Virus record (IMG/VR): IMGVR_UViG_3300030328_004377
Span: 1 to 22,767 of that record
Direction: 5' to 3' (one strand)
Origin: a virus
Length of the DNA stretch: 22,767 nt
In this document: positions 1-19,036 of the stretch, in pieces
Numbering within the stretch: position 1 is the stretch's first letter
Layout: every line of letters starts with the position of its first letter
The notes under the pieces: model-generated
Told to the model about the DNA's origin: nothing
The model's input: only the letters and a program-made list of their open reading frames with translations
Databases searched by the model: none
Translations under genes and position numbers: made by a program

Positions 1-465
1 CTATCTGCGATGTTATTTTCTTGGGTGAAATCCAAGAAGCCAGACTATACTATGACTACAAATGGCGTACTAGCAGGGCTAGTAGGAATAACAGCGGGAG
101 CAGACGTAGTGAGTATCTGGAGTGCGTGTACAATCGGGGCTATCGCCGGTATAATACTTTGTCTCGCGTCATCTTTTATTGAGAGAGTGATTAAGATAGA
201 TGATCCAGTAGGAGCTATCGCTGTTCATGGGGTATGTGGCGTATGGGGAACCGTTGCCGTAGGCATATTTTCATCAGAACATTCTATACTAATTCAATTA
301 TTAGGAACATTAATAATAAGTGCATTTTCTTTCTTGTTTTCTTTATTAACATTTGGTATTATTAAAAAGACATTAGGAGTAAGAATAAATGGTCAATTAG
401 AAGCTAAAGGTCTAGATCTTTTAGAGCATGGTCATACTGCTTATCCAGACTTTCAAGTGAGTTGA
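1..465 (+). CDS. amt: Amt/MEP/Rh-family ammonium transporter, C-terminal part (5' end outside the window)
   Basis: The reading frame is open from base 1, so the gene is cut by the window edge and only the C-terminal ~154 residues are present. Family signatures are clear. NGVLAGLVGITAG matches the Amt pore-helix signature, and DDPVGAIAVHGVCGVWG carries the second histidine of the pore twin-His pair. The tail ending in EHGHTAYPDF resembles the usual Amt C-terminus. Several hydrophobic helices are visible. The family conducts ammonium or ammonia across the inner membrane. The gene is followed by a strong hairpin terminator, so it ends its own transcript. In this phage context it is probably an auxiliary gene that supports nitrogen uptake during infection (inference). 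Whether the N-terminal half is intact cannot be seen. Confidence 0.93.
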   Translation, partial: LSAMLFSWVKSKKPDYTMTTNGVLAGLVGITAGADVVSIWSACTIGAIAGIILCLASSFIERVIKIDDPVGAIAVHGVCGVWGTVAVGIFSSEHSILIQLLGTLIISAFSFLFSLLTFGIIKKTLGVRINGQLEAKGLDLLEHGHTAYPDFQVS

Positions 466-490
466 TAATAAAATTCATATAATTGTCAAG

Positions 491-513
491 CCACCCTTCG
501 GGGTGGTTTTTTT
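491..513 (+). terminator. Rho-independent terminator after amt
   Basis: A six-base-pair GC-rich stem, CCACCC with GGGTGG, is closed by a TTCG tetraloop and followed by seven T residues. It starts 25 bases after the amt stop codon. It separates amt from the phosphate-transporter gene. Confidence 0.93.
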
Positions 514-550
514 GTTACAGAGTTGTTACTTGATCTATAGGCAAGTTTAC

Positions 551-565
551 TGTATAATATAAATA
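551..565 (+). promoter_or_regulatory. Candidate promoter (TGTATAATATAAATA) abutting the pit start codon
   Basis: The stretch contains a TATAAT box at 553-558 and a TATAAATA octamer at 558-565, one base before the ATG at 567. If TATAAT acts as a -10 element, the transcript would start at or very near the ATG and be nearly leaderless. The stretch lies just after a terminator, where a promoter is expected. Related motifs occur before other genes in the window. Confidence 0.5.
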
Positions 566-566
566 G

Positions 567-1520
567 ATGAACATAGAATCTTTATATGTGATTGTCGGTT
601 TTTTATTAGCTTCTTATTCTGTTATTGCAAATGACTCAGTCCAAACATTAGGAACATGGATAGCTTCTAACTCTAAAAAAATTAAATGGTATTATATGTG
701 GTGCGCGGCAAGCTCTGTTCTACTATTTACTATATGGTATGGATGGATAGTGAATAATGGGGATATATCTTACGGCAGGTTAGAAAAAATACCTTATCAA
801 ACTGTTCAATGGTATCATGCTTTGGCTCCTATGATATTAGTAGCTCTCACTAGATTTGGAGTTCCAGTAAGCACAACATTTTTAGTTTTATCAGCTTTTG
901 CCAGCACACTCGTATTGGAAAAAGTTTTAATCAAGTCTGCTATGGGGTATGTAGTCGCTGCAACGGCTGCTTATGTAATCTGGCTTGCAGTGTCTAAATA
1001 TTGGGAAAACCAAAAAGATGTGGCTCCAGAGAGAGAAACTGCTTGGCGTTGTGCTCAATGGCTAACAACAGGCTGGCTTTGGTTTACATGGCTATCTCAT
1101 GACATGGCAAATATAGCAGTCTTTTTACCTAGGGAGATACCAATAGAAACAATGGCTTTGGTTAGCTTGGTCTTTGTAGGAGGCTTAGGATATATGTTTT
1201 TCGAAAAGGGAGGTAGGATACAGAAAATAGTCCTCTCTAAAGCTAATGTTAATTATGTAAGATCTGCGACTATCGTCGATTTAGTATACAGTATCATACT
1301 TTGGTATTTTAAAGGCTACAACAACATTCCTATGAGTACGACTTGGGTATTTGTTGGTTTACTGGCTGGAAGAGAGTTGGCTTTCGTAACGACTAACTCA
1401 TTAGGCGACTCACATAACATGAAGATAGTCTTTCCTATGTTGTTAAAAGATTTTCTAAAAATGATGGTTGGCCTTGCTATCTCTGTGGCTATGGTATTAG
1501 CTATCCACTACATATTCTAA
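567..1520 (+). CDS. pit: PiT-like inorganic phosphate transporter
   Basis: This 317-residue integral membrane protein has two inverted signature repeats typical of PiT/PHO4 transporters. The first half has AND-SVQTLGT (residues 21-30) and GVPVSTT (98-104). The second half has SHDMANIAVFLP (177-188) and PMSTT (255-259). These correspond to the family's G-ANDVANA and PVSTTH motifs. PiT proteins import phosphate with a cation across the inner membrane. At 317 residues it is shorter than typical cellular PiT proteins (about 400-500), with a short central loop. The final His of PVSTTH is replaced by F in the first repeat and by W in the second. No Shine-Dalgarno sequence is seen, and a promoter-like TATA box abuts the start. 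With amt upstream it suggests phage-boosted P and N uptake (inference). Confidence 0.8.
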   Translation: MNIESLYVIVGFLLASYSVIANDSVQTLGTWIASNSKKIKWYYMWCAASSVLLFTIWYGWIVNNGDISYGRLEKIPYQTVQWYHALAPMILVALTRFGVPVSTTFLVLSAFASTLVLEKVLIKSAMGYVVAATAAYVIWLAVSKYWENQKDVAPERETAWRCAQWLTTGWLWFTWLSHDMANIAVFLPREIPIETMALVSLVFVGGLGYMFFEKGGRIQKIVLSKANVNYVRSATIVDLVYSIILWYFKGYNNIPMSTTWVFVGLLAGRELAFVTTNSLGDSHNMKIVFPMLLKDFLKMMVGLAISVAMVLAIHYIF

Positions 1521-1608: not shown

Positions 1609-1929
1609 ATGGGGAGAATTATATTTTACGAAGGGATAGTAGAGCCGCCAACAGAGACTTTGGCTATAAGAGGGTTGTGTTTATACTTAAATATTTTCGG
1701 AAAAGACTCTGAAATATTATTAGAAACTCGTAAAAAACATAGAGATCTATATTTTCAATGGATAAAGCAGACAGGTCTAAGCGATTTCGTAGAAGAGATA
1801 GTTTATCCTGAGTATAAAGTAATGGGTTTTAGGATAGCAGCCCAAAAGGTCAGATCTCCTTATATGAAAGTCGATAGGATATCTTTTGATAACCTAAACG
1901 ATATACTTTCCAAGTTAAAAAGTGTATAA
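1609..1929 (+). CDS. Hypothetical protein, 106 residues
   Basis: I do not recognise this protein. It has no signal peptide or membrane helix. It is mixed alpha/beta by appearance, with a basic helical middle (residues around 40-60: ETRKKHRDLYFQWIKQ) and a C-terminal helix NLNDILSKLKSV. It lies between the phosphate-transporter and ferredoxin genes. Its last codons overlap the promoter-like motif of the ferredoxin gene. There is no Shine-Dalgarno sequence before the ATG. The close packing suggests it belongs to the same accessory cassette, but no function can be assigned. Confidence 0.75.
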   Translation: MGRIIFYEGIVEPPTETLAIRGLCLYLNIFGKDSEILLETRKKHRDLYFQWIKQTGLSDFVEEIVYPEYKVMGFRIAAQKVRSPYMKVDRISFDNLNDILSKLKSV

Positions 1930-1933
1930 TATT
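1922..1933 (+). promoter_or_regulatory. Recurring GTGTA motif (GTGTATAATATT) before the ferredoxin gene
   Basis: The motif contains a perfect TATAAT and lies over the stop codon of the preceding gene, 3 bases before the chosen ATG at 1937. A -10 element here would give a transcript with almost no leader. Confidence 0.45.
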
Positions 1934-1936
1934 AAA

Positions 1937-2164
1937 ATGGCAGAAATATCAGATAGATATGAAGATAATGTAGCTGGTAGGTATTTTGTTGACGAGCAAT
2001 GTATAGACTGTGATCTGTGCAGAGAAGAAGCTCCTAAAAATTTTACCAGAAACGAAGCAGAGGGTTACTCTTACGTTTATAAACAACCAGAGGGTGAAGA
2101 AGAAGGAGATTGCAAGACAGCCATGGAAAACTGTCCTGTAGAAGCGATCGGTGATTTTGGGTAA
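1937..2164 (+). CDS. Small 4Fe-4S ferredoxin
   Basis: This 75-residue acidic protein has the cluster ligands C22-x2-C25-x2-C28 (QCIDCDLCRE) and C66-P (ENCPVEAIG), which fits a single [4Fe-4S] cluster. An extra Cys59 is present, but a second full motif is not. The pattern CIDCDLCR...NFTRN...SYVYKQP is one I associate with short ferredoxins of Verrucomicrobiota and related phyla (recalled, not searched). The start is set at MAEISDR. An in-frame GTG 15 bases upstream lies inside the promoter-like motif and is less likely. It would act as a cytoplasmic electron carrier. Its partner is unknown. It ends 1 base before the HxxSHH gene, so the two are probably co-expressed. Confidence 0.88.
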   Translation: MAEISDRYEDNVAGRYFVDEQCIDCDLCREEAPKNFTRNEAEGYSYVYKQPEGEEEGDCKTAMENCPVEAIGDFG

Positions 2165-2165
2165 A

Positions 2166-3410
2166 ATGAATAGAAGAAAATTCATAGGTTCCTTAGGTCT
2201 TTCTATGGCATTGCCGGGGTTAGAGTGTTTTGGTAATGTTAAAAAGGATGTGAAAAGGTTTGCGGCTGTATACGTACCTAACGGTATCAATATGCATCAC
2301 TGGACTCCTAAGAACTATGGTAGCTTAATTGACTTACCGAATATAATTTCTCCGATGGAAAGTTACAGAGACAGCTTACAGATAGTCTCTGGATTGACTC
2401 ATGATAAAGCTAGGCCAAATGGAGATGGAGCTGGAGATCACGCTAGAGCTTGTTCAACATTTCTTACAGGCAAGCAAGCCAATAAGCACGAGTCACAAAT
2501 ACGTTCAGGTAAATCTGTCGATCAATACTTAGCAGACAAATATAATGGTATTACAAGATTTGATAGTCTTCAATTTACTGGTTCTAAAGCTAGAATAATT
2601 GGTAAGTGTGATTCTGGTTATAGTTGTGCGTATCAATATAATTTATCTTGGAAATCTGCTTCTCAACCTATGGCATCTATGTATGACCCTAAAGATATTT
2701 TTAATAGGTTGTTTAATGTTGAGAAAATAGAACAGAAACAGAAATTATATAAAAAGTCTATTCTTGATTTTGTTTTAGAAGAGAGTCGTGCATTATCTAA
2801 TAATATTCCAGCAAGTGATAAAGCTAAGTTAGATGAGTATATGTATTCAGTAAGAGAAGTAGAACTAGAATTAGAAAGAAGAGATAAATTTAATTTAAAT
2901 AATAATTTTGAGTTTGATTTCGATATAGAGAAAAAATCTGATAAGTTTAGATTAATTTATAGCTTAATGCACTTAGCCTTCCTAACTGACACATCAAGAG
3001 TAATAACTTTTTTAACAGCGCACGATGGATACAACGGACACCATAGAGAGATAGGTATTAGCGAAGGCCATCACAGCTTATCACATCATCAGAAAGATCC
3101 TCATAAGTTAGCTGCGCTTGCTAAGATTAATTTGTTCCACGTGAAACTATTCTCTGAGTTTATAGGTAAGTTAGAAAAAGATGACCTCTTAGAAAACACT
3201 GATGTCTTATATGGGGCAGGTATATCTGACGGTAATAGACACAACCACGACGAACTTCCATGTATGTTAGTAGGAGGTAGCAACAAAGGTAATCATTTTC
3301 GAGTAAAAAAAGAAAAACCCATGTGCGACCTTTTTGTAAGCTTGCTGAATAAACACGGAATTGATATGAAGCATTTCGGAGACTCAGAAAGCGAATTAAA
3401 TATACTTTAG
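2166..3410 (+). CDS. Tat-exported HxxSHH-family protein (DUF1552)
   Basis: This 414-residue protein starts with a twin-arginine signal (MNRRKFIGSLGLSMALPGLE), so it is probably exported folded to the periplasm. Residues 303-308 are HSLSHH, the motif that names the HXXSHH/DUF1552 family. Downstream, LYGAGISDGNRHNHDELP (about residues 350-367) matches the family's conserved C-terminal block. The family is common in Planctomycetota, Verrucomicrobiota and Myxococcota and has no established activity. It resembles the DUF1501/alkaline-phosphatase-like proteins in motif style, so a hydrolase role is possible but unproven. The start at 2166 is preferred over 2151 because it places the RR motif at the N-terminus and is 1 base after the ferredoxin stop. 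Length is about normal for the family. Such a gene is unexpected in a phage. Confidence 0.85.
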   Translation: MNRRKFIGSLGLSMALPGLECFGNVKKDVKRFAAVYVPNGINMHHWTPKNYGSLIDLPNIISPMESYRDSLQIVSGLTHDKARPNGDGAGDHARACSTFLTGKQANKHESQIRSGKSVDQYLADKYNGITRFDSLQFTGSKARIIGKCDSGYSCAYQYNLSWKSASQPMASMYDPKDIFNRLFNVEKIEQKQKLYKKSILDFVLEESRALSNNIPASDKAKLDEYMYSVREVELELERRDKFNLNNNFEFDFDIEKKSDKFRLIYSLMHLAFLTDTSRVITFLTAHDGYNGHHREIGISEGHHSLSHHQKDPHKLAALAKINLFHVKLFSEFIGKLEKDDLLENTDVLYGAGISDGNRHNHDELPCMLVGGSNKGNHFRVKKEKPMCDLFVSLLNKHGIDMKHFGDSESELNIL

Positions 3411-4552: not shown

Positions 4553-4777
4553 TTACTTTTTAAATTTAGATACTATCCATCTAAAAGAAGTGACTAATCC
4601 ATGATACACCCATCCTAAAACATACATAAGAAACAGAACAATAGCTAAAGGATTTATTTTAGATAATATACTAACTTTTTCTTTCTTCTCTTTACTAATC
4701 ATTTTATTTATGAATTTTAAATCTTCCTTATCAGCACTCCATCTTTCGTCTTTCCATGAAATGCAATATATCTTCAC
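4553..4777 (-). CDS. Small membrane protein, 74 residues (GTG start)
   Basis: The protein starts with GTG, giving MKIYCISWKDERWS. It has a charged N-terminal half and one membrane helix (about residues 45-62, INPLAIVLFLMYVLGWVY), then a short basic tail (RWIVSKFKK). The hydrophobic helix near the C-terminus distinguishes it from its neighbours. It precedes the 79-residue membrane gene by 3 bases, so the two are probably co-transcribed. A holin-like role is possible but not supported by any recognised motif. A GTGTAATA motif lies 13 bases upstream of the start. Confidence 0.6.
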   Translation of the reverse strand: MKIYCISWKDERWSADKEDLKFINKMISKEKKEKVSILSKINPLAIVLFLMYVLGWVYHGLVTSFRWIVSKFKK

Positions 4778-4790
4778 TTTATTTAATAGA

Positions 4791-4798
4791 TATTACAC
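4791..4798 (-). promoter_or_regulatory. Recurring GTGTA motif (GTGTAATA), minus strand
   Basis: Read on the minus strand, GTGTAATATCTATTAAATAAA leads into the GTG start at 4777. It is one copy of the repeated upstream motif. Confidence 0.35.
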
Positions 4799-4804
4799 TA
4801 TATT

Positions 4805-5344
4805 CTAAAGCTGAATATTAGTGTTTTCGTAGTAAACGTTATCTTCTTTAGATGTGCCTTGGGTAAAGACAGGCTCTCTTAAAGCATAGACTTTAAACTT
4901 GTCCATTAACTCATGAGCCCAAACAACATCTAGTAAAACGTCATTACATACAGCTGCTGCCGTGTATTCAAGAGCGGACTGAACTGCTTTAATATTAAAA
5001 AAGGAAACAGCATGTGTCGTGCCCATCCTTTGTAAGCGGGCAAGATGGGGATATCCTTCTACGTCGTGATAAGTCTCTTGCCATATCTTCTCCGGGTCCT
5101 CATCAAACTTACATACTCCATAGTAGAGAATGTCGCAGTCTTCAGGTACATCGAAATCTTCTAAAGGCTTTATTTGATTAGCGTCCGACTCTAAAACTAG
5201 AACTGGAAAAGACTTTTCTTCTTTTATTTTAACTAAAGCTTTTAACCAAGCTAAGTTACAGCCCATACCACTCGAAGTACCCCAAACCGGCGCGATCCTC
5301 TCGTACTGAGTATATAGATCGTCTGTTATCTTATATATCTTCAT
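4805..5344 (-). CDS. GT25-like glycosyltransferase
   Basis: This 179-residue soluble protein resembles the core of glycosyltransferase family 25 (LPS glycosyltransferases). GMGCNLAWLKAL (about residues 26-37) corresponds to the GC-LSHL segment. FPVLVLESDA (about 46-55) corresponds to the hydrophobic strand ending in the acidic pair of the family. GTTHAVSFFNIKAV (about 108-121) corresponds to GTHAYVI. It is shorter than typical bacterial GT25 enzymes. It may glycosylate a surface glycan or virion protein, but the acceptor is unknown. It sits among membrane-protein genes on the minus strand. No Shine-Dalgarno sequence is seen. The assignment is by motif memory only. Confidence 0.5.
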   Translation of the reverse strand: MKIYKITDDLYTQYERIAPVWGTSSGMGCNLAWLKALVKIKEEKSFPVLVLESDANQIKPLEDFDVPEDCDILYYGVCKFDEDPEKIWQETYHDVEGYPHLARLQRMGTTHAVSFFNIKAVQSALEYTAAAVCNDVLLDVVWAHELMDKFKVYALREPVFTQGTSKEDNVYYENTNIQL

Positions 5345-7608: not shown

Positions 7609-8376
7609 ATGCCAAAAATAAGAGTTGACCAATTGGCCGATTCTCTAGAAGAATTGGATAACCCTAAAGGTAGAGCCTTACAAAGGGAGCCTATAAGACA
7701 TAGAGAGAAGTTTCATATAGAAAACTTTGATTGGACCGATAAACAGAAAGAGTTTATCAAAATTGCTCTAAGTAAAGAGTCTAAAATACTTTTTGCTAAA
7801 GGTCCAGCAGGATGTTCTAAGACCCTATTAAGCGTATATTGCGCTTTACACCTATTGAATGAAGGTAAGGTTTCTGAAATAGTTTACGTTAGATCAGCTG
7901 TAGAAAGCTCTGATTCAAGAATGGGCTTCTTACCGGGAGATGCAGACCAAAAGCTTCATTTTTACAATCTTCCGTTTCTTCATAAACTGGAAGAGTTAGT
8001 ATGTCCTAATGTAATAAAAAAGCTTCAGAAAGACGAAAGAGTCTCAACTTATCCAGTTAATTTTTGTAGAGGTATGAGTTGGAACTCTAAATGTTTAATA
8101 TTTGATGAGTGCCAGAATAGTACTGTAAAAGAAATAGTGACTGTTTTGACTAGATTAGGAATGAGCTCTAAATGTTTCGTCCTAGCAGATCCTGCTCAAA
8201 CAGATTTAAAGAATGGAGCAAGAGGAGGCTTCGAGAAGATACAAGGATTATTTTCAGATAAAGAAAGTAAAAACTTTGGTATTAATACTTTTGAGTTTGA
8301 TGAGTCGGACGTTGTAAGGTCTGAATTAGTCAAATTTTTAGTCACTAAATTCAAAGATGTTACTACTGTAAGTTAA
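7609..8376 (+). CDS. phoH: PhoH-like P-loop ATPase
   Basis: This 255-residue protein has a clear PhoH domain. Walker A is GPAGCSKT (residues 65-72, usually GPAGTGKT), and the PhoH-typical GFLPGD is at 106-111. Walker B is CLIFDECQN (161-169), followed by LADPAQTDL in place of the usual GDP-Q-D. An N-terminal extension of about 40 residues precedes the WTDKQKEFI helix. PhoH proteins are cytoplasmic ATPases common in marine phages. They are linked to phosphate starvation or RNA metabolism, but their role in phages is not settled. The Walker A loop has Cys-Ser in place of Thr-Gly but keeps the catalytic Lys and Thr. The gene begins a plus-strand run. No Shine-Dalgarno sequence is seen. Confidence 0.92.
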   Translation: MPKIRVDQLADSLEELDNPKGRALQREPIRHREKFHIENFDWTDKQKEFIKIALSKESKILFAKGPAGCSKTLLSVYCALHLLNEGKVSEIVYVRSAVESSDSRMGFLPGDADQKLHFYNLPFLHKLEELVCPNVIKKLQKDERVSTYPVNFCRGMSWNSKCLIFDECQNSTVKEIVTVLTRLGMSSKCFVLADPAQTDLKNGARGGFEKIQGLFSDKESKNFGINTFEFDESDVVRSELVKFLVTKFKDVTTVS

Positions 8377-10928: not shown

Positions 10929-12025
10929 ACGAGTCAACTTTAAGTAACGAACAGAAGTTTGCGCTAACATCAGTTAGGGACAGGTTCCTAGCGGGAGAAG
11001 ATGTAGATATATCTTTAATGCACCTTATCCAAGATGTTGCTGGATTCAAAGGGAAAGATGGAAGAAGCAAAGAAGGCAGAGCAGTAAAATCTTATTTAAG
11101 TGAAATAGACTTTAACGCAATACCGGCTAGCGAATACCAAAAAGTTGAAAAGCCAGAGCTATCAGAAGAGCAAAAAGAATTTATTTCTAACCATAGAGGC
11201 ACAATGAAGTACGTTGAGATGTCTCGTATAATTTTTGTAGATGAAACTTTAACTAGTTTAAGCGCAGAAACTAGGATGGTGACAGATTACTGCAAAAGCT
11301 TAGAAGGGGAAGACTTTGAAACTCCTGAAGAAGAGCAAGAAAGATTTGAATATAAGCCGCCTAAGCATCCAGACAGAGTCTTAAGTAGGGTTAATAGATT
11401 TGTTCATGATAGTGGTATAGATAAAGATAAGATCACGCCTAGACAGAAGAAAAATTTAGAGAAACTAATGGGTTACCTTCATACCTTTAGGTTCGTTCAC
11501 CAAATAAATAACTACGAACACGAAACAGAGAGAGAGTTGTTCGAATCTTCTTTTGTTAGATATACAAACGATAAGGCAGACTTAACTCAAGAAGAAGTTG
11601 ATCAGTATATTGTATTATCTGGAGAAGTAGTAATAGCCTCTAACATACAAAGAAGGGTAGGTAGACTACAAAGGCTACTTGACGATACAGCTAACGATAA
11701 TGAAGGAAGAAGGATTTCAATGAGTTTAGTCGAGGCTATAAGCACAGCACAGAATGAATACAATTCATGCGTTAACAGGCAACATAAACTGTTGAGCGAC
11801 TTAAAGCAAAAAAGAAGTGATAGGTTAAGCAAGCAAGTGCAGGAAAATGCTAGTATACTCAATCTAGTAGAAACTTGGAAAGACGAAGAGAGTAGGAAGG
11901 AACTTATCAAAATGGCAGAACTCAGAAAGAAAGTCGTCCAAGACGAAGTTGAAAAGCTTTCGACTATTGACGATGTAAAAGCTAGAATATTTGGCTTATC
12001 AGAAGAGGAGGCTATAAATGGATAA
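10925..12025 (+). CDS. Putative terminase small subunit / DNA-recognition protein
   Basis: The 366-residue protein is mostly helical and charged. SKEGRAVKSYLSEI (about residues 48-61) resembles a short DNA-binding segment seen in marine-phage proteins next to terminases. MKYVEMSRIIFVDETLTSL (about 93-111) could be a helix-turn-helix. The C-terminal half contains long coiled-coil stretches (RQHKLLSDLKQKRSDRLSKQ). Position supports the call: it lies two genes before the large terminase and overlaps both neighbours. It is larger than most small terminases, and homology is not established. It could instead be a DNA-binding protein of another kind. Confidence 0.5.
   Translation: MNESTLSNEQKFALTSVRDRFLAGEDVDISLMHLIQDVAGFKGKDGRSKEGRAVKSYLSEIDFNAIPASEYQKVEKPELSEEQKEFISNHRGTMKYVEMSRIIFVDETLTSLSAETRMVTDYCKSLEGEDFETPEEEQERFEYKPPKHPDRVLSRVNRFVHDSGIDKDKITPRQKKNLEKLMGYLHTFRFVHQINNYEHETERELFESSFVRYTNDKADLTQEEVDQYIVLSGEVVIASNIQRRVGRLQRLLDDTANDNEGRRISMSLVEAISTAQNEYNSCVNRQHKLLSDLKQKRSDRLSKQVQENASILNLVETWKDEESRKELIKMAELRKKVVQDEVEKLSTIDDVKARIFGLSEEEAING
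12006..12011 (+). promoter_or_regulatory. Strong Shine-Dalgarno site (AGGAGG) for the ERCC4 nuclease gene
   Basis: AGGAGG lies 6 bases before the ATG at 12018, inside the end of the upstream gene. It is one of few strong ribosome sites in the window and fixes this start. Confidence 0.8.
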
Positions 12026-12953
12026 TACTGAGTTTGTCTGCAAAGTAGACGGAGAAAAATTTGAGACAGAAAAGCAACTACACATGCATTTGCGCAAACA
12101 TAAAATGCGCATGGCTGAGTATTACCAAAAATTTTACCCACGAAGGGATTTACTTACAGGAGATTTAATTAAATTTAAAAACAAAGCTCATTACTTTGCT
12201 AATTATTTTAATTCCAGACCTAATATGAAAAAGTATCTTGAGTCTGCTCCTGAAGGAGAAGCTAGGGACTTTTGTACTCAAGTTATTAAAGACAGAATAG
12301 AAAGGAGGAGTATTAAATATTCCCCTACTCAAGTAGAGATGAGGTCTTCAATGATGCCTCCAATATTCTACTATCAAAAACTTTTTGGTAACTATTATAA
12401 TCTTTGCGAAGAGTTAGGCCTTTTAGCTAGATTCAAAAATACACCTAAAAGTAAAATAAATGAGAGCATAGAAGAGGGCTTTGAAATTGTCGTAGATACA
12501 AGAGAACAAAAGCCTTTGAATATAAACTATGGCACAAGAAGAGAAGGTTTAAAATTTGCTGACTACTGGCTTGACAAAGAAGATAATAAATGCTATGTAG
12601 AAAGAAAAGAGACAAAAGATTTTATAGGTACGTTTACTGGAGGCTGCGAAAGGTTTTCTAGAGAATTAGAAAGAGCCAAAGAGAAAGACTCTTATGTGGT
12701 AGTTGTGGTAGAAAATTCTCTTGACAACATGATGAAGTTTAATTATTTAAAATACGTTACAAAGAAAATTCAAGTTACTCCAGAGTTTGTTATGAGGAAC
12801 GTTAGAGATATTATACAAAAGCATGACAACGTTCAATTTTTATTTGCAAAAGGCAGAACTGAAGCTACTAGGCTGACTAGAAAACTTTTTTTCTGTGGTG
12901 AAAACTACAAGAACGTAGATCTTCAGCTAGCTTATGATATGGATTTATTGTAA
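12018..12953 (+). CDS. ERCC4-type nuclease with N-terminal zinc-finger-like segment
   Basis: In this 311-residue protein, residues 8-28 (CKVDGEKFETEKQLHMHLRKH) look like a degenerate C2H2/MucR-type finger, with the second Cys missing. They are followed by AEYYQKF, a motif often next to such fingers. The C-terminal half is an ERCC4 nuclease: VVDTREQKPL (158-167), then FADYWL with Asp182, then YVERKETKD (193-201). This is the ERK-x3-D active-site signature. Such nucleases cut branched or flap DNA. In the position just before the large terminase it may process replication intermediates for packaging (inference). The stop codon overlaps the terminase start (TAATG). A strong AGGAGG precedes the start. 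Confidence 0.8.
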   Translation: MDNTEFVCKVDGEKFETEKQLHMHLRKHKMRMAEYYQKFYPRRDLLTGDLIKFKNKAHYFANYFNSRPNMKKYLESAPEGEARDFCTQVIKDRIERRSIKYSPTQVEMRSSMMPPIFYYQKLFGNYYNLCEELGLLARFKNTPKSKINESIEEGFEIVVDTREQKPLNINYGTRREGLKFADYWLDKEDNKCYVERKETKDFIGTFTGGCERFSRELERAKEKDSYVVVVVENSLDNMMKFNYLKYVTKKIQVTPEFVMRNVRDIIQKHDNVQFLFAKGRTEATRLTRKLFFCGENYKNVDLQLAYDMDLL

Positions 12954-14806
12954 TGTGGTCAACTCCAGAAAAATACGAAAGAGAAGTAGAAGATGTCAAT
13001 GCTGAACTAGCAAAGATTGAAGGCTTTCTGGATGAGAAACAAGCTCGTAGCTCTTTAGCGAAATTCCTAAGAAACAATTTATACTTCACGACTTTTTTAT
13101 TGACAGGGATAAAACTCGCGCCCTTTCAAGAAATTACTTTAAGGGGAATGTTCAATAGGAACTTTAGTATGTGCGTATGGGGTCGTGGTTGCGGTAAATC
13201 TTTTATAGCCTCTATTTACTGTTTCTTGCAATGTATATTTGAACCCAATACGAAGATACTTATAGCTGGCCCAACTTTTCGTACAGCTAGATTTATATTT
13301 AACAATATAGAAAAGATAGTTGAGACAAGAGAAGCTATGCTACTTGCCCAAGCCTTTGGAGCAAAAACAAAAAGAAACGATCAATACGAATGGAAAATTA
13401 ATGGTGGGACTATAACAGCTATCCCTCTTAGTGGTGAAAAGATTCGTGGTTTCCGCGCTAACATACTTGTGCTTGATGAGTATTTACTACTACCCGAAGA
13501 CATAATCAAAAACGTTTTAATGCCCTTCCTTGTGGCTCCTCAGGACATGAAGAGAAGAATGGAAGTAAAAGAGTTAGAAGATAAGCTAGTCAAAGAAGGG
13601 GTCATCAAAGAAGAAGAGAGAACTAAGTTCGAAAATAAATCTAAGATGATAGCTCTTTCGTCAGCGAGTTATACTTTCGAAAATCTTTATAAAACTTACC
13701 AAGAGTGGATTAATAAAATACAATCAGAAGACGAAGAATCTGACGCAAAGTATTTTGTATCTCAAATGGGATACGAGGCCTTACCAGAGGAGATGATAGA
13801 TAGAACTATTATCGAAGAAGCTCAAGAAGGAGGGTCTTCTCACTTCTCGTTTCAGCGAGAATATTGTGCTCAGTTTACAGATGGTAGTGATAGCTATTTT
13901 AGCGCAAAGAAGATGGAGTTGTGCACCCTAAAAGGCGAAGAAGAACCTAGTACCTTAATGGTTGGAAGAGGAGGAAAACGTTACGTGCTGGGTATTGACC
14001 CCAACATGAGCGATAGCCCTACGGCCGATTACTTTGCTATGTCTGTTATGGAGATAGACGACGATACGGGCCAAGGGACTCTTGTTCATACTTACGCTGG
14101 CCTTGGGAGTTTAAATAAACATGTAAAATATTTAGCTTATTTACTTCAAGCTTTTAATATTGTTTTTATATGTCTTGATAATGCTGGCTCTGATACATTT
14201 TTAGATAGTTGTAATGAGTCTCAATTCTTTAAAGACATTCGCGTTAATTTAAAAACTATACCTTTAAGTTCTGATGCAGATGGAGTAGAATATCAGAAAT
14301 CATTAAGACAAGCTAAACAAAAATATAATTTAGAAAATAATCAAATTTGTTTTAATCAAGTATTTACTAGTAACTTTATACGAAGAGCTAATGAATATTT
14401 ACAGGCTTGTATAGATTATAAAAAGATTTGGTTTGCTTCAAGAACAGCTTCGAATGAAACATTTTTTAATAGGACTAGTTCTATAAGACTACCTAACCCT
14501 AAAAAGCTCATCTTTATTGACGATAGAAAAGAATGGTCTATGCTTGACTTTATTGAGCATCAAGACGATATGGTTTATCAAACTAAAAAGCAATGTAGCT
14601 TAGTAGAACATAAGTCTACTGCTAGGGGATCACAGAACTTTGACCTACCTCAACACCTCAAAAGATCCACTTCTCCCAATAAAGCAAGAAAAGATAATTA
14701 TTCTTCATTAATGTTGGCGAATTGGGGACTTAAGCTCTATAACGACTTAAATAAGGCCGAAACTAACACTAATAAGGAAACTTTCGAGCCTATTATGCTT
14801 TTTTAA
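12953..14806 (+). CDS. terL: Terminase large subunit (DNA-packaging ATPase and nuclease)
   Basis: The 617-residue protein has a full terminase layout. Walker A is WGRGCGKS (residues 76-83) and Walker B is ILVLDEY (171-177). A coupling motif is ALSSASYTF (about 234-242). The RNase H-like nuclease domain shows acidic residues in LGIDPN (346-351), ICLDNAG (406-412) and HQDDM (536-540). The enzyme powers DNA translocation into the prohead and cuts concatemers. The Walker A has GRGCGKS, a common terminase variant. The start ATG overlaps the nuclease stop. The product is normal length for a T4-like or related terminase. Confidence 0.96.
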   Translation: MWSTPEKYEREVEDVNAELAKIEGFLDEKQARSSLAKFLRNNLYFTTFLLTGIKLAPFQEITLRGMFNRNFSMCVWGRGCGKSFIASIYCFLQCIFEPNTKILIAGPTFRTARFIFNNIEKIVETREAMLLAQAFGAKTKRNDQYEWKINGGTITAIPLSGEKIRGFRANILVLDEYLLLPEDIIKNVLMPFLVAPQDMKRRMEVKELEDKLVKEGVIKEEERTKFENKSKMIALSSASYTFENLYKTYQEWINKIQSEDEESDAKYFVSQMGYEALPEEMIDRTIIEEAQEGGSSHFSFQREYCAQFTDGSDSYFSAKKMELCTLKGEEEPSTLMVGRGGKRYVLGIDPNMSDSPTADYFAMSVMEIDDDTGQGTLVHTYAGLGSLNKHVKYLAYLLQAFNIVFICLDNAGSDTFLDSCNESQFFKDIRVNLKTIPLSSDADGVEYQKSLRQAKQKYNLENNQICFNQVFTSNFIRRANEYLQACIDYKKIWFASRTASNETFFNRTSSIRLPNPKKLIFIDDRKEWSMLDFIEHQDDMVYQTKKQCSLVEHKSTARGSQNFDLPQHLKRSTSPNKARKDNYSSLMLANWGLKLYNDLNKAETNTNKETFEPIMLF

Positions 14807-15982: not shown

Positions 15983-17875
15983 ATGACAAAGAAAACAAAA
16001 AAGCAAGAAGACGATATTAAGCCAATGATGACAAGCTTTGCGGCTTCTCCATATACTACTTCGGATCAGTCCACTAGGACTAGGAGGAATGTAGGTGGAC
16101 AAATAGAAAGGACCAACAGGTTCGAAAATATTGATAACGGTTTAGTTCCATACAAGTATACAAAAGGAGCTAACAATAGAAGTTCTCTAGACGTTAGAGA
16201 TGCAGTAATTCTTTGTCAAAAAGCTTATTATAATTTTGCTGTTTTCAGAAACGTCATTGATTTGATGACCGAGTTTTCCTGCACTAATTTGTATTTTACA
16301 GGAGGAAGCAAGAAGTCAAGAGATTTCCTTAAAGCTTTATTTAAGAAGATTGATATGCAAAGTTTTCTTGATAAGTTCTTTAGGGAATACTATAGATCTG
16401 GTAACTGTTTTATTCATAGATTTGACACTAAGATACAACCAGAAGATTTAAAAAGAATCACTCAAACTTATGGTGGAGGCAAGTTGTCTTCTCTCGCTGA
16501 AGAAGGAAAGTTACCTTCTAGATATATTATACTTAACCCTGCTGATATTCAAATGGGCGGCAATATATCTTTCTTCTCTGGTTTGTATTATAAAATACTT
16601 ACAGATTACGAGCTAGAAAGGATTAAGAATCCAAAAACAGAAGAAGATCAACAAGTCTTCGACTCTCTTGATGAAGAAACAAAAAAAGCTTTAAAAGGTA
16701 GGAACTTAGGTATTATATCTCTTAAACTAGATACAGATAAAGTAACTCCTGTATTTTACAAAAAGCAAGATTACGAACCATTTTCTGTGCCTTTAGGTTT
16801 TCCAGTGCTAGAGGATATAAACTGGAAGTCTGAAATGAAAAAGATGGACATGGCTTTAACTAGAACTACAAGCCAAGCTATACTCTTAATCACTATGGGT
16901 TCTGAGTTAAAAGACGGTAGTCTTAATATTAATCAAAGAAGCATTGAGACTATGCAGAAGCTTTTTGAGAATCAATCAATTGGAAAGGTTTTAGTTTCTG
17001 ATTATACAACTCAAGCAAAATTTGTTATTCCAGATATAGCTAGTATTCTAGATCCTAAAAAATATAGCGTAGTAAATGAAGATATACAAATGGGTCTTAA
17101 TAATATATTAGTGGGTGATGATAAGTTTGCTAACACAAGTATTAAAATTCAAGTATTTATAGAAAGATTAAAACAAGGTCGTGATGCTTTTATTAATCAG
17201 TTTCTTTCTGAAGAGATAAAAAGAATTTGTAAGTCTTTAGGTTTCAAAAATTACCCTAAGGCTCATTTTCAAGAAATCGAATTAAAAGACAAAACGACTT
17301 GGAATAGAGTTGTCGCCCAGCTTATACAGTATGGTGTTCTTACCGCTGAAGAAGGTATAGAAGCAATAGGAACAGGAAGACTTCCTGAACCAGAAGAGTC
17401 TCTAGATTCACAGAAAAGATTTAGAGAGCTAAAAGATCAAGGTTTTTATTCTCCTCTTCTAGGAGGAGGCGGTGGAGGTGAGCCAGTAGGCAGACCAGAA
17501 GGTGAATCAGCTCCGCAGACTACTAAGAAGGTGAGTCCAGTAGGAGAGAATACTTCTGGGTCTCAAAAGTTCAGCGTAGAAAAAATTAAAGAGAGTTTAG
17601 CACTAGCAGAAAAGCTAGAAACAGAGATTCAAGAGAAGCTTAAACTAAAGTATGAAAACAAAAGAGTAACTAATAAGATTAGAACTTTGTCTTCTGAATT
17701 GTGTAAAATAGTTATGGCTAATGAATCTTCTGACAAATGGTTAGAAAAAGTTGGTGAATACATCAATAACCCAGCAGATACTAATGCAGAAGCTATACAA
17801 GAAATACAAAACATAGCGATGGAGCATCAAGTTGATGAGTATTTAGCAAGTTTGTTATATGCAAGTAAGGTTTAA
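15983..17875 (+). CDS. Portal protein
   Basis: The 630-residue protein matches the layout of phage portals. There is an N-terminal tail, a wing-like region starting FRNVIDLMTEFSCTNLYF (about residues 87-104), a long helical stem, and a C-terminal coiled-coil end. A Gly-rich linker (LLGGGGGGEPVGRP, near residue 495) separates the core from a helical C-terminal domain. The position after the terminase and before the head genes supports the call. The portal forms the dodecameric vertex through which DNA is packaged. Length is at the upper part of the usual range. The FtsZ-like gene follows 3 bases later. Confidence 0.85.
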   Translation: MTKKTKKQEDDIKPMMTSFAASPYTTSDQSTRTRRNVGGQIERTNRFENIDNGLVPYKYTKGANNRSSLDVRDAVILCQKAYYNFAVFRNVIDLMTEFSCTNLYFTGGSKKSRDFLKALFKKIDMQSFLDKFFREYYRSGNCFIHRFDTKIQPEDLKRITQTYGGGKLSSLAEEGKLPSRYIILNPADIQMGGNISFFSGLYYKILTDYELERIKNPKTEEDQQVFDSLDEETKKALKGRNLGIISLKLDTDKVTPVFYKKQDYEPFSVPLGFPVLEDINWKSEMKKMDMALTRTTSQAILLITMGSELKDGSLNINQRSIETMQKLFENQSIGKVLVSDYTTQAKFVIPDIASILDPKKYSVVNEDIQMGLNNILVGDDKFANTSIKIQVFIERLKQGRDAFINQFLSEEIKRICKSLGFKNYPKAHFQEIELKDKTTWNRVVAQLIQYGVLTAEEGIEAIGTGRLPEPEESLDSQKRFRELKDQGFYSPLLGGGGGGEPVGRPEGESAPQTTKKVSPVGENTSGSQKFSVEKIKESLALAEKLETEIQEKLKLKYENKRVTNKIRTLSSELCKIVMANESSDKWLEKVGEYINNPADTNAEAIQEIQNIAMEHQVDEYLASLLYASKV

Positions 17876-17878
17876 AAT

Positions 17879-19036
17879 ATGAGCGAAAATAAAGAAAATA
17901 TTCAAGACGTAAATCAGTACTTTGGTGCTGCAGAGATAGACGTTATGGTTCCGGACATTCCATTGCCTCCAGAACCAGAAGAGAAAAAGGAAGTTAAAGA
18001 CGAGGTCGAAGGAGCCTTTAAGTTTGCTTTCATCGGTGCTGGGCAAGGTGGCTCCAGAATTGCAGAAAGCTTTCATAAATTAGGCTACAGAAAAGTAGGC
18101 ATCGTCAATACTGCCCAACAAGATTTAAATTCTATTAATGTAGAGAACAAGCTGTGTATTGGAGCAGGTGGCGCTGGTAAAGACAGAAGCGTTGCTGCTA
18201 AATGCTTTGATGAGAAGCGCGATGATGTTCTTGACTTTATGCGTCGTTCTTTTGGGGAGGATGTGGACAGAATCTTTGTTTGTGCTGGAGCCGGAGGAGG
18301 ATCTGGTGCAGGTACGCTAGTTCCTTTAGTAAAGACTGCTAAAGAGTTACAGGAAACAATTAAATCTGGATCTAAGAAGGTTGGGGTTATTCTAGCCTTA
18401 CCTAAATATTCAGAAGGTAGAAAAGTAAATGCTAACGCTTACAATACTTTAAAAGAGGCATGTGATTTGGTCAATGAGGGAGTAGTTTCTCCTCTTGTCA
18501 TCATCGATAATGAAAAAACAAGTAAGTTATATTCTAATGTATCTGTCTCTAATTTCTGGCAGACTGCTAATATGAGTACAGCAGGGGTTTTCCACTTGTT
18601 TAACATGACAGCTTCTAAGGATAGCTCTTATTCTTCTTTTGACTCTAGTGACTATAAGAACGTGCTAGATTCTGGAATTACTATCTTTGGCGCAACACCA
18701 GTTCCTAAATGGGACGATCCTGTAAGTATTTCTAGGGCTGTTAGAAGCATAGCTCAAAGTGGCAGCATGTCTGGTGGTATAGATGTATCTACAGCTAATT
18801 CAGCTGGTGCTATTCTTATTGGGGGTAAAGAGGTGTTGGATAACATTCCTCAGTCTAGCCTTGATGAAGCTTTTGATCAATTAACTAGAATTCTTAGATC
18901 TGGAAGTGTAGTACATAGAGGCATTTACAGTGGAGATAAAAATAATCTTACAGTATTTACGATTATTGGTGGTATAGCTACCCCTCAAGAGAAGCTAGAG
19001 GAGCTAATGAAGTTAGGAGATTTAGAAGAAAAATAA
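17879..19036 (+). CDS. FtsZ/tubulin-family GTPase
   Basis: The 385-residue protein has an acidic, Pro-rich N-terminal extension (residues 1-46) and then an FtsZ-like GTPase domain. FIGAGQGGSR (51-60) is the T1 loop. GIVNT-AQQDL (74-83) corresponds to the FtsZ VNTDAQAL segment. AGAGGGSGAG (136-145) is the tubulin signature (FtsZ AGMGGGTGTG). A T7-like SFDSSDYKNVL (253-263) keeps both acidic residues D255 and D258 that complete GTP hydrolysis between subunits. A C-terminal beta domain follows. It therefore probably polymerises with GTP. It sits 3 bases after the portal gene, inside the late head operon. Phage tubulins known to me (PhuZ, TubZ) are more divergent from FtsZ. No FtsZ C-terminal partner-binding peptide is seen. 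Confidence 0.88.
   Translation: MSENKENIQDVNQYFGAAEIDVMVPDIPLPPEPEEKKEVKDEVEGAFKFAFIGAGQGGSRIAESFHKLGYRKVGIVNTAQQDLNSINVENKLCIGAGGAGKDRSVAAKCFDEKRDDVLDFMRRSFGEDVDRIFVCAGAGGGSGAGTLVPLVKTAKELQETIKSGSKKVGVILALPKYSEGRKVNANAYNTLKEACDLVNEGVVSPLVIIDNEKTSKLYSNVSVSNFWQTANMSTAGVFHLFNMTASKDSSYSSFDSSDYKNVLDSGITIFGATPVPKWDDPVSISRAVRSIAQSGSMSGGIDVSTANSAGAILIGGKEVLDNIPQSSLDEAFDQLTRILRSGSVVHRGIYSGDKNNLTVFTIIGGIATPQEKLEELMKLGDLEEK

Follow-up and report, generated by a model that had tools for sequence, protein, structure and literature searches.

An uncultured, probably marine phage with predicted ammonium and PiT-fold transporter genes side by side

An uncultured tailed phage with two predicted functional auxiliary uptake genes lying next to each other, one for an ammonium transporter (Amt) and one for a PiT-fold importer, is the reading that we favour, at a probability of about 0.6, for the DNA analysed here (the window, which is an entire IMG/VR record of 22,767 bp). 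The phage is probably marine. Marine phages carry single nutrient genes, such as pstS, phoA or amt. A phage that encodes an ammonium importer as well as a phosphate-type one would imply that, in some viruses, the cost of the genome is covered for nitrogen and phosphorus at once. Specifically, Amt made during infection would conduct ammonium into the cell from the host inner membrane, and the PiT-fold protein, placed in the same membrane, may import phosphate as a sodium-coupled carrier, by analogy with the transporter TmPiT. More nitrogen and phosphorus would thereby reach phage DNA and protein synthesis, and both nutrients may enter infected cells via virus-made proteins. Counted against this reading are the rarity of the pair, a PiT score below the Pfam PHO4 cut-off, and two related contigs (G020 and G021) in which amt is present with no match to PiT.

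The phage locus and its sister contigs

The features assigned in the window are the following.

1-465, plus strand: Amt/Mep/Rh ammonium transporter, C-terminal 154 residues, open at the contig edge (PF00909, 6.1e-40)
488-509, plus strand: intrinsic terminator in the gap between amt and PiT (pattern scan, conservation in both sister contigs)
530-558, plus strand: sigma-70-like promoter, TTGATC-17-TATAAT (scan, hexamers kept in three contigs)
567-1520, plus strand: short PiT-fold transporter, 317 aa, complete (weak PF01384, AF2 model, TmPiT fold match, hhalign)
1609-1929, plus strand: 106-aa protein with no family match (adjoins PiT in the sister contigs too, 81-82%)
1922-2164, plus strand: ferredoxin (Fer4_13), 80 aa (PF13370, 5.4e-20)
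2166-3410, plus strand: HXXSHH (DUF1552) protein, start at 2151 or 2166 (PF07586, 1.4e-79)
7609-8376, plus strand: PhoH-like ATPase (PF02562, 2.3e-46; phrog_170, 3.4e-58)
12018-12953, plus strand: ERCC4-type nuclease (PF02732, 2.1e-8; phrog_3490, 2.1e-14)
12953-14806, plus strand: terminase large subunit (TerL), a phage hallmark (phrog_2, 1.5e-25; PF03237, 8e-9)
17879-19036, plus strand: tubulin/FtsZ-like GTPase (PF00091, 8.9e-11; phrog_17961)

The original prediction described an Amt C-terminus and a PiT-like gene, one after the other with a terminator between them, in a phage genome. The arrangement is as described, and the phage assignment is borne out by the TerL, PhoH and ERCC4-type nuclease genes on the same contig. 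TerL has 344 relatives in IMG/VR; candidates for the portal and MCP were assigned by position only, the family scans being without a match. The tubulin/FtsZ-like gene lies directly 3′ of a large gene (15983-17875) in the window and is 81-98% conserved in those marine terminase relatives that have it, and in G020 and G021 a relative (43-45%) sits between amt and the HXXSHH gene instead.

As the window is the whole record, direct extension upstream was impossible and two sister contigs from IMG/VR, G001 (36,355 bp) and G002 (20,429 bp), were used instead. Both have a full amt, PiT, the 106-aa gene, PhoH and the terminase in the order of the window, with identities to it (G001 and G002, respectively) of 92% and 89% for PiT, 91% and 89% for PhoH and 90% and 90% for the terminase. 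Upstream of amt in both contigs are an outer-membrane-barrel-like protein with a signal peptide (PF13505 at E 0.022 in G001, which is below the cut-off, and no match in G002) and then a membrane protein of 104-106 aa. Relatives of the barrel-like gene occur in three terminase-related contigs (29-35%) and one of the small 104-aa gene in a more distant contig, G022 (45%), and near amt in G020 and G021 there is a relative (38%) of a 163-aa gene that lies further to the left in G002. In G021 (79 kb), rIIB, clamp-loader and DNA-ligase genes are found upstream of amt. These shared phage genes to the left, together with the rIIB, clamp-loader and ligase neighbours in G021, therefore place amt inside a phage genome, and the amt-PiT pair has the two-sided context by which auxiliary genes are judged, with TerL, PhoH and the nuclease on its right. 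The upstream check proposed with the original prediction thus led to a full amt and to phage-group genes on its far side.

The two predicted transporters and the gap between them

The Amt fragment in the window matches PF00909 with 137.6 bits (profile positions 237-399 of 399; cut-off 23.2), and the full protein of a sister contig reaches 385.8 bits over positions 1-399, which puts it within the Amt/Mep/Rh family. The full-length copies, called at 414 aa in G001 and 404 aa in G002, are 95% and 94% identical to the fragment. Seven residues (F107, W148, D160, H168, F215, S219 and H318 in E. coli AmtB numbering), which we take to be those of the pore, are all kept in the Amts of G001, G002, G022 and two further loci (L024 and L010); the window fragment spans H318 only and keeps it. 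The general NCBIfam model for amt (TIGR00836) is matched at 400.1 bits against a cut-off of 343.3, and the model for a marine Amt subtype (TIGR03644) is missed at 415.3 bits against 514. The Amt of the phage is a predicted ammonium channel, the gene being intact and full-length in two sister contigs.

Among the Bacteroidota and Pseudomonadota genomes that the cellular search covered, the nearest Amts are from Bacteroidota (62% identity, 296 genomes), the best in Pseudomonadota reaching 49% (299 genomes). In a quick Amt tree, which came with long-branch warnings, the window group and L024 form one clade (100) among Bacteroidota-like Amts, and the Amts of L010 and L015, two records that also carry PiT, belong to a different virus clade, placed towards Pseudomonadota. 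A Bacteroidota type is the best reading of the window Amt, and the donor, and perhaps the host, may therefore be sought in Bacteroidota. Few of the 31 listed window genes are preceded by a Shine-Dalgarno-like sequence and most by A-rich stretches, as judged by eye and with no control count. Some hosts, Bacteroidota for example, do not rely on Shine-Dalgarno sequences, and the scarcity of such sequences at the window gene starts would fit a host of that kind.

The PiT protein is more difficult to place by routine family searches. It scores 19 bits (E 0.00073) against PF01384 (PHO4), for which the cut-off is 33.7, so that Pfam membership is not attained, and an NCBIfam scan gave no match; for these two reasons its substrate is not fixed by sequence. 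A short SAR11 relative is below the PF01384 cut-off as well (15.4 bits). The signatures that the original prediction had recognized (AND/HDMAN and VSTT) are indeed present in the 317 residues, as four motifs in order over both halves (ANDSVQTLGT, GVPVSTT, SHDMAN and IPMSTT), and their core residues (N22 D23; P100 S102 T103; H178 D179 N182; P255-T259) are invariant in all 89 aligned relatives. While an earlier hhalign run with a shallow profile recovered the PVSTT motif alone, comparison with 13 classical PiTs brings all four motifs into register (local probability 72.8, global 94.1).

Structure prediction followed a similar course: an AF2 model from 15 close sequences had a low pLDDT of 45, and the one then built from 89 sequences was better (pLDDT 79, pTM 0.77). 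Two chains of TmPiT (PDB 6L85) are the sole Foldseek matches of this model in the PDB at E <= 0.001 (E 3.1e-5, TM 0.67), and VIA-align 2 superposes model and TmPiT over 289 residues with Z 20.2 and rmsd 3.9, the next row being unrelated at Z 7.0. The likeness is one of fold, whereas sequence identity is 16-17% and the window protein has 317 residues to the 400 of TmPiT; searches of PDB sequences, whether with the single PiT or with its profile, found no credible relative. On the strength of the model, the window protein has the PiT fold, and it probably works like a PiT from outside the Pfam PHO4 membership.

The original prediction had regarded the PiT as shortened, and this part did not hold: cellular relatives, those of SAR11 and Flavobacteriales among them, are of similar length, so that the length is native to the family and the reading as a truncated PiT was rejected. 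In one SAR11 single-cell genome (L060, 6001-11427) a short PiT lies about 3 kb from a DUF47/classical PiT pair, and both kinds thus coexist in a single genome.

The short PiT is widespread in uncultured viruses. As the original prediction advised, viral metagenomes were searched, and both genes occur on other IMG/VR contigs, PiT with at least 592 relatives among 599 matched stretches. A profile search of bacterial genomes gave 288 relatives out of 343, and the 80 of these that were kept are mostly from SAR11 and Flavobacteriales. Phylogeny against cellular lineages had also been proposed, and it set the Amt among Bacteroidota-like sequences, as above, and all 53 viral PiTs of an 89-row tree (36 rows being cellular) in one clade with support 100/98. 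That clade also includes two ‘cell’ rows, and the window, G001 and G002 PiTs fall in a virus-only subclade of 15 rows (100/97). In a contig binned as Rhodobacteraceae (L027), PiT groups within the viral clade and the genes around it are phage-like by eye; this is probably a phage contig in that bin. As the best explanation, the phage PiT may derive from a clade that is borne by viruses and handed on from phage to phage. The short PiT has no match in PHROGs, in INPHARED (tblastn) or in BFVD at E <= 0.001. Being common in uncultured viral contigs, unmatched in these collections and below the Pfam cut-off, the clade may therefore have been missed by viral phosphorus-gene surveys that use them.

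Between the amt stop and the PiT start there are 101, 100 and 99 bases in the three contigs. The terminator is kept in both sister contigs, with a stem longer by one pair in one of them, although the pattern scan as such is not above chance (2 found, 2.1 expected from shuffles). The same is true for the promoter pattern (11 found, 15.3 in shuffles), of which both hexamers and the 17-nt spacing are nonetheless kept in all three contigs, with a variable spacer sequence and small changes in the first hexamer in G002. This arrangement suggests that PiT could be transcribed apart from amt, from its own promoter. With about 8-9 nt between the -10 box and the ATG of PiT, a leaderless transcript is possible. 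The gap has no Rfam match in the window, L003 or L264, and the idea of a known RNA family there was rejected.

Recurrence of the pair, known systems and rival readings

The pairing of amt and PiT is recurrent but rare. Among the 19 records nearest by the window PiT, five have amt (G001, G002, G008, G013 and G014, the two genes being about 30 kb apart in the last), and none of 50 further PiT records does (50 out of 69). Conversely, a short PiT is present in 4 of 80 viral amt loci, within the stretch examined around amt, and in 2 of 50 terminase-related records, both already known, many of these records ending before the site. The order is PiT-amt, the reverse of that in the window, in G008, G013 and G022. 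The last of these, found via amt, has the end of a PiT at the contig edge, followed by amt and a PII gene (PF00543, 4.1e-31). In its locus (L275), amt (1717-3394) has an N-terminal extension, the PII gene is at 4612-4959 and the relative of the 104-aa gene lies nearby on the other strand. With at least two Amt lineages, both orders and few records, the pairing is therefore recurrent yet not a rule.

That viral amt genes and viral phosphate-transporter genes are each known, as the original prediction had it, agrees with the available parts of three papers (PMC7174320, PMC8115048, PMC3429862). A close parallel is with viral glnK-amtB-ompL contigs from the Pacific oxygen minimum zone (PMC8115048), which, in the part of the text available, resemble the present locus in having a Bacteroidota-type phage Amt, with amtB followed by a terminator and adjoined by a porin gene. 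Those contigs have a PII gene and, in that part of the text, no phosphate transporter, whereas amt in G001 and G002 is followed by PiT, with no sign of an adjoining PII gene; the distant G022 has amt-PII and the PiT end. Open-ocean bacteriophage amt genes (PMC7174320) are likewise viewed as an aid to uptake in infection, with no adjoining phosphate transporter in the available portion of that paper. PHO4/PiT genes have been described, as far as the accessible text goes, in algal viruses and in one Pacific clone close to HIMB59, which its authors read as phage-derived (PMC3429862). The likeness is a virus-borne gene of the PHO4 superfamily, and the difference is between a single clone in 2012 and a clade of at least 592 IMG/VR matches, missed by the Pfam cut-off and here paired with amt. 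Two pelagiphage papers (PMC9599517, PMC7029224) mention neither an ammonium nor a phosphate transporter in the text seen. As far as the open-access literature was searched, no report was found of amt with PiT in a phage, and both this pairing and the breadth of the PiT clade in phages seem to be new.

It is quite possible, if not our preferred reading, that both are genuine auxiliary genes which happen to share a cargo-tolerant stretch upstream of the PhoH-terminase region, their adjacency having no functional meaning over and above that of either gene. The terminator and separate promoter between them would agree with this, as would the absence of amt from most PiT records, the variable neighbours among the sisters (no ferredoxin in G001, no HXXSHH in G002) and the retention of amt and HXXSHH without PiT in G020 and G021. 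Chance adjacency is however harder to reconcile with the return of the pair elsewhere among phage records, where the Amt lineage differs and the order is reversed, and with the confinement of full-length amt-PiT cases to a single subclade of PiT (6 of 15 rows of the tree versus 0 of 38, although the rows are interdependent, the records partly short and the scan for amt limited to part of the 38). The same facts divide the original prediction that nitrogen and phosphorus limits would be lifted together: a phage locus with both genes intact is there, but ‘together’ is weakened by the terminator, the separate promoter and the lack of amt in most PiT records.

The PiT family includes the sulfate permease CysP, and if the PiT-fold protein carried another anion such as sulfate there would be no nitrogen-plus-phosphorus pair. 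We consider this unlikely, with the distance below the PHO4 cut-off in its favour and a SAR11 cell that has a short PiT besides a classical PiT with DUF47, the substrates of which may differ. Yet a sodium-phosphate transporter is the one protein whose fold clearly matches (CysP structures lying outside the comparison), and all four signature motifs line up with those of classical PiTs. An assembly chimera near 3.4 kb, or a host chromosome at the left end, was named with the original prediction as what would overturn it. Either is hardly credible: amt in the window is indeed cut by the contig end with no phage gene to its left, but G001 and G002 cross the same junction in the same order, which refutes the chimera as far as contigs allow, and the genes to the left of amt are common to other phage contigs, including G021 with its rIIB, clamp-loader and ligase genes, so that the host chromosome was rejected too.

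Selection and exchange of neighbouring genes

Both genes are under purifying selection, like TerL, with pN/pS of 0.085-0.118 for PiT, 0.065-0.094 for amt and 0.055-0.096 for TerL. Among the window-group contigs, dS is 0.43-0.67 for amt compared with 1.1-1.9 for TerL and 2.4-2.9 for the tubulin-like gene, the range for PiT (0.79-1.78) overlapping that of TerL. The identity between G001 and G021 is 81% for both amt and HXXSHH, as against about 40-42% for TerL and for the next large gene. The low dS of amt and the 81% identity fit an exchange of cargo between phages, or a stronger constraint on the cargo. The cargo itself differs, as G001 has HXXSHH without ferredoxin, G002 has ferredoxin (71%) without HXXSHH and the window has both.

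A bolder proposal is that the barrel-like gene, the 104-aa membrane protein, amt, PiT, ferredoxin and HXXSHH make up a mobile island for nutrient acquisition, exchanged among phage lineages, with HXXSHH as a putative exported hydrolase whose action would supply PiT with phosphate or another anion. If true, the island would combine outer-membrane entry, release and inner-membrane import of nitrogen and phosphorus. The G001-G021 identity of amt and HXXSHH and the lower dS of amt, and in part of PiT, relative to core genes were counted for it; we nevertheless hold it to be quite improbable. The N-terminus of HXXSHH is twin-arginine-like by eye and a phosphatase-like fold would be our guess for the protein, for which a PDB sequence search gave no credible relative; DUF1552 has no match in the main text of PMC5615132.

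The cellular search for HXXSHH took in marine PiT-bearing genomes (0 of 24), Pseudomonadota (3 of 398, best 36%) and Bacteroidota (0 of 395). Its absence from the 395 Bacteroidota genomes is a poor fit with the guess of a Bacteroidota host. In the cargo region of G021 (L267, 9483-11036, minus strand) there is an ankyrin-repeat protein with a weakly guanylate-cyclase-like C-terminus (E 0.016, below the cut-off). Relatives of HXXSHH at 75-90% are found in 15 viral loci, some on contigs of 115-201 kb, and in four of these a ferredoxin gene lies just before it.
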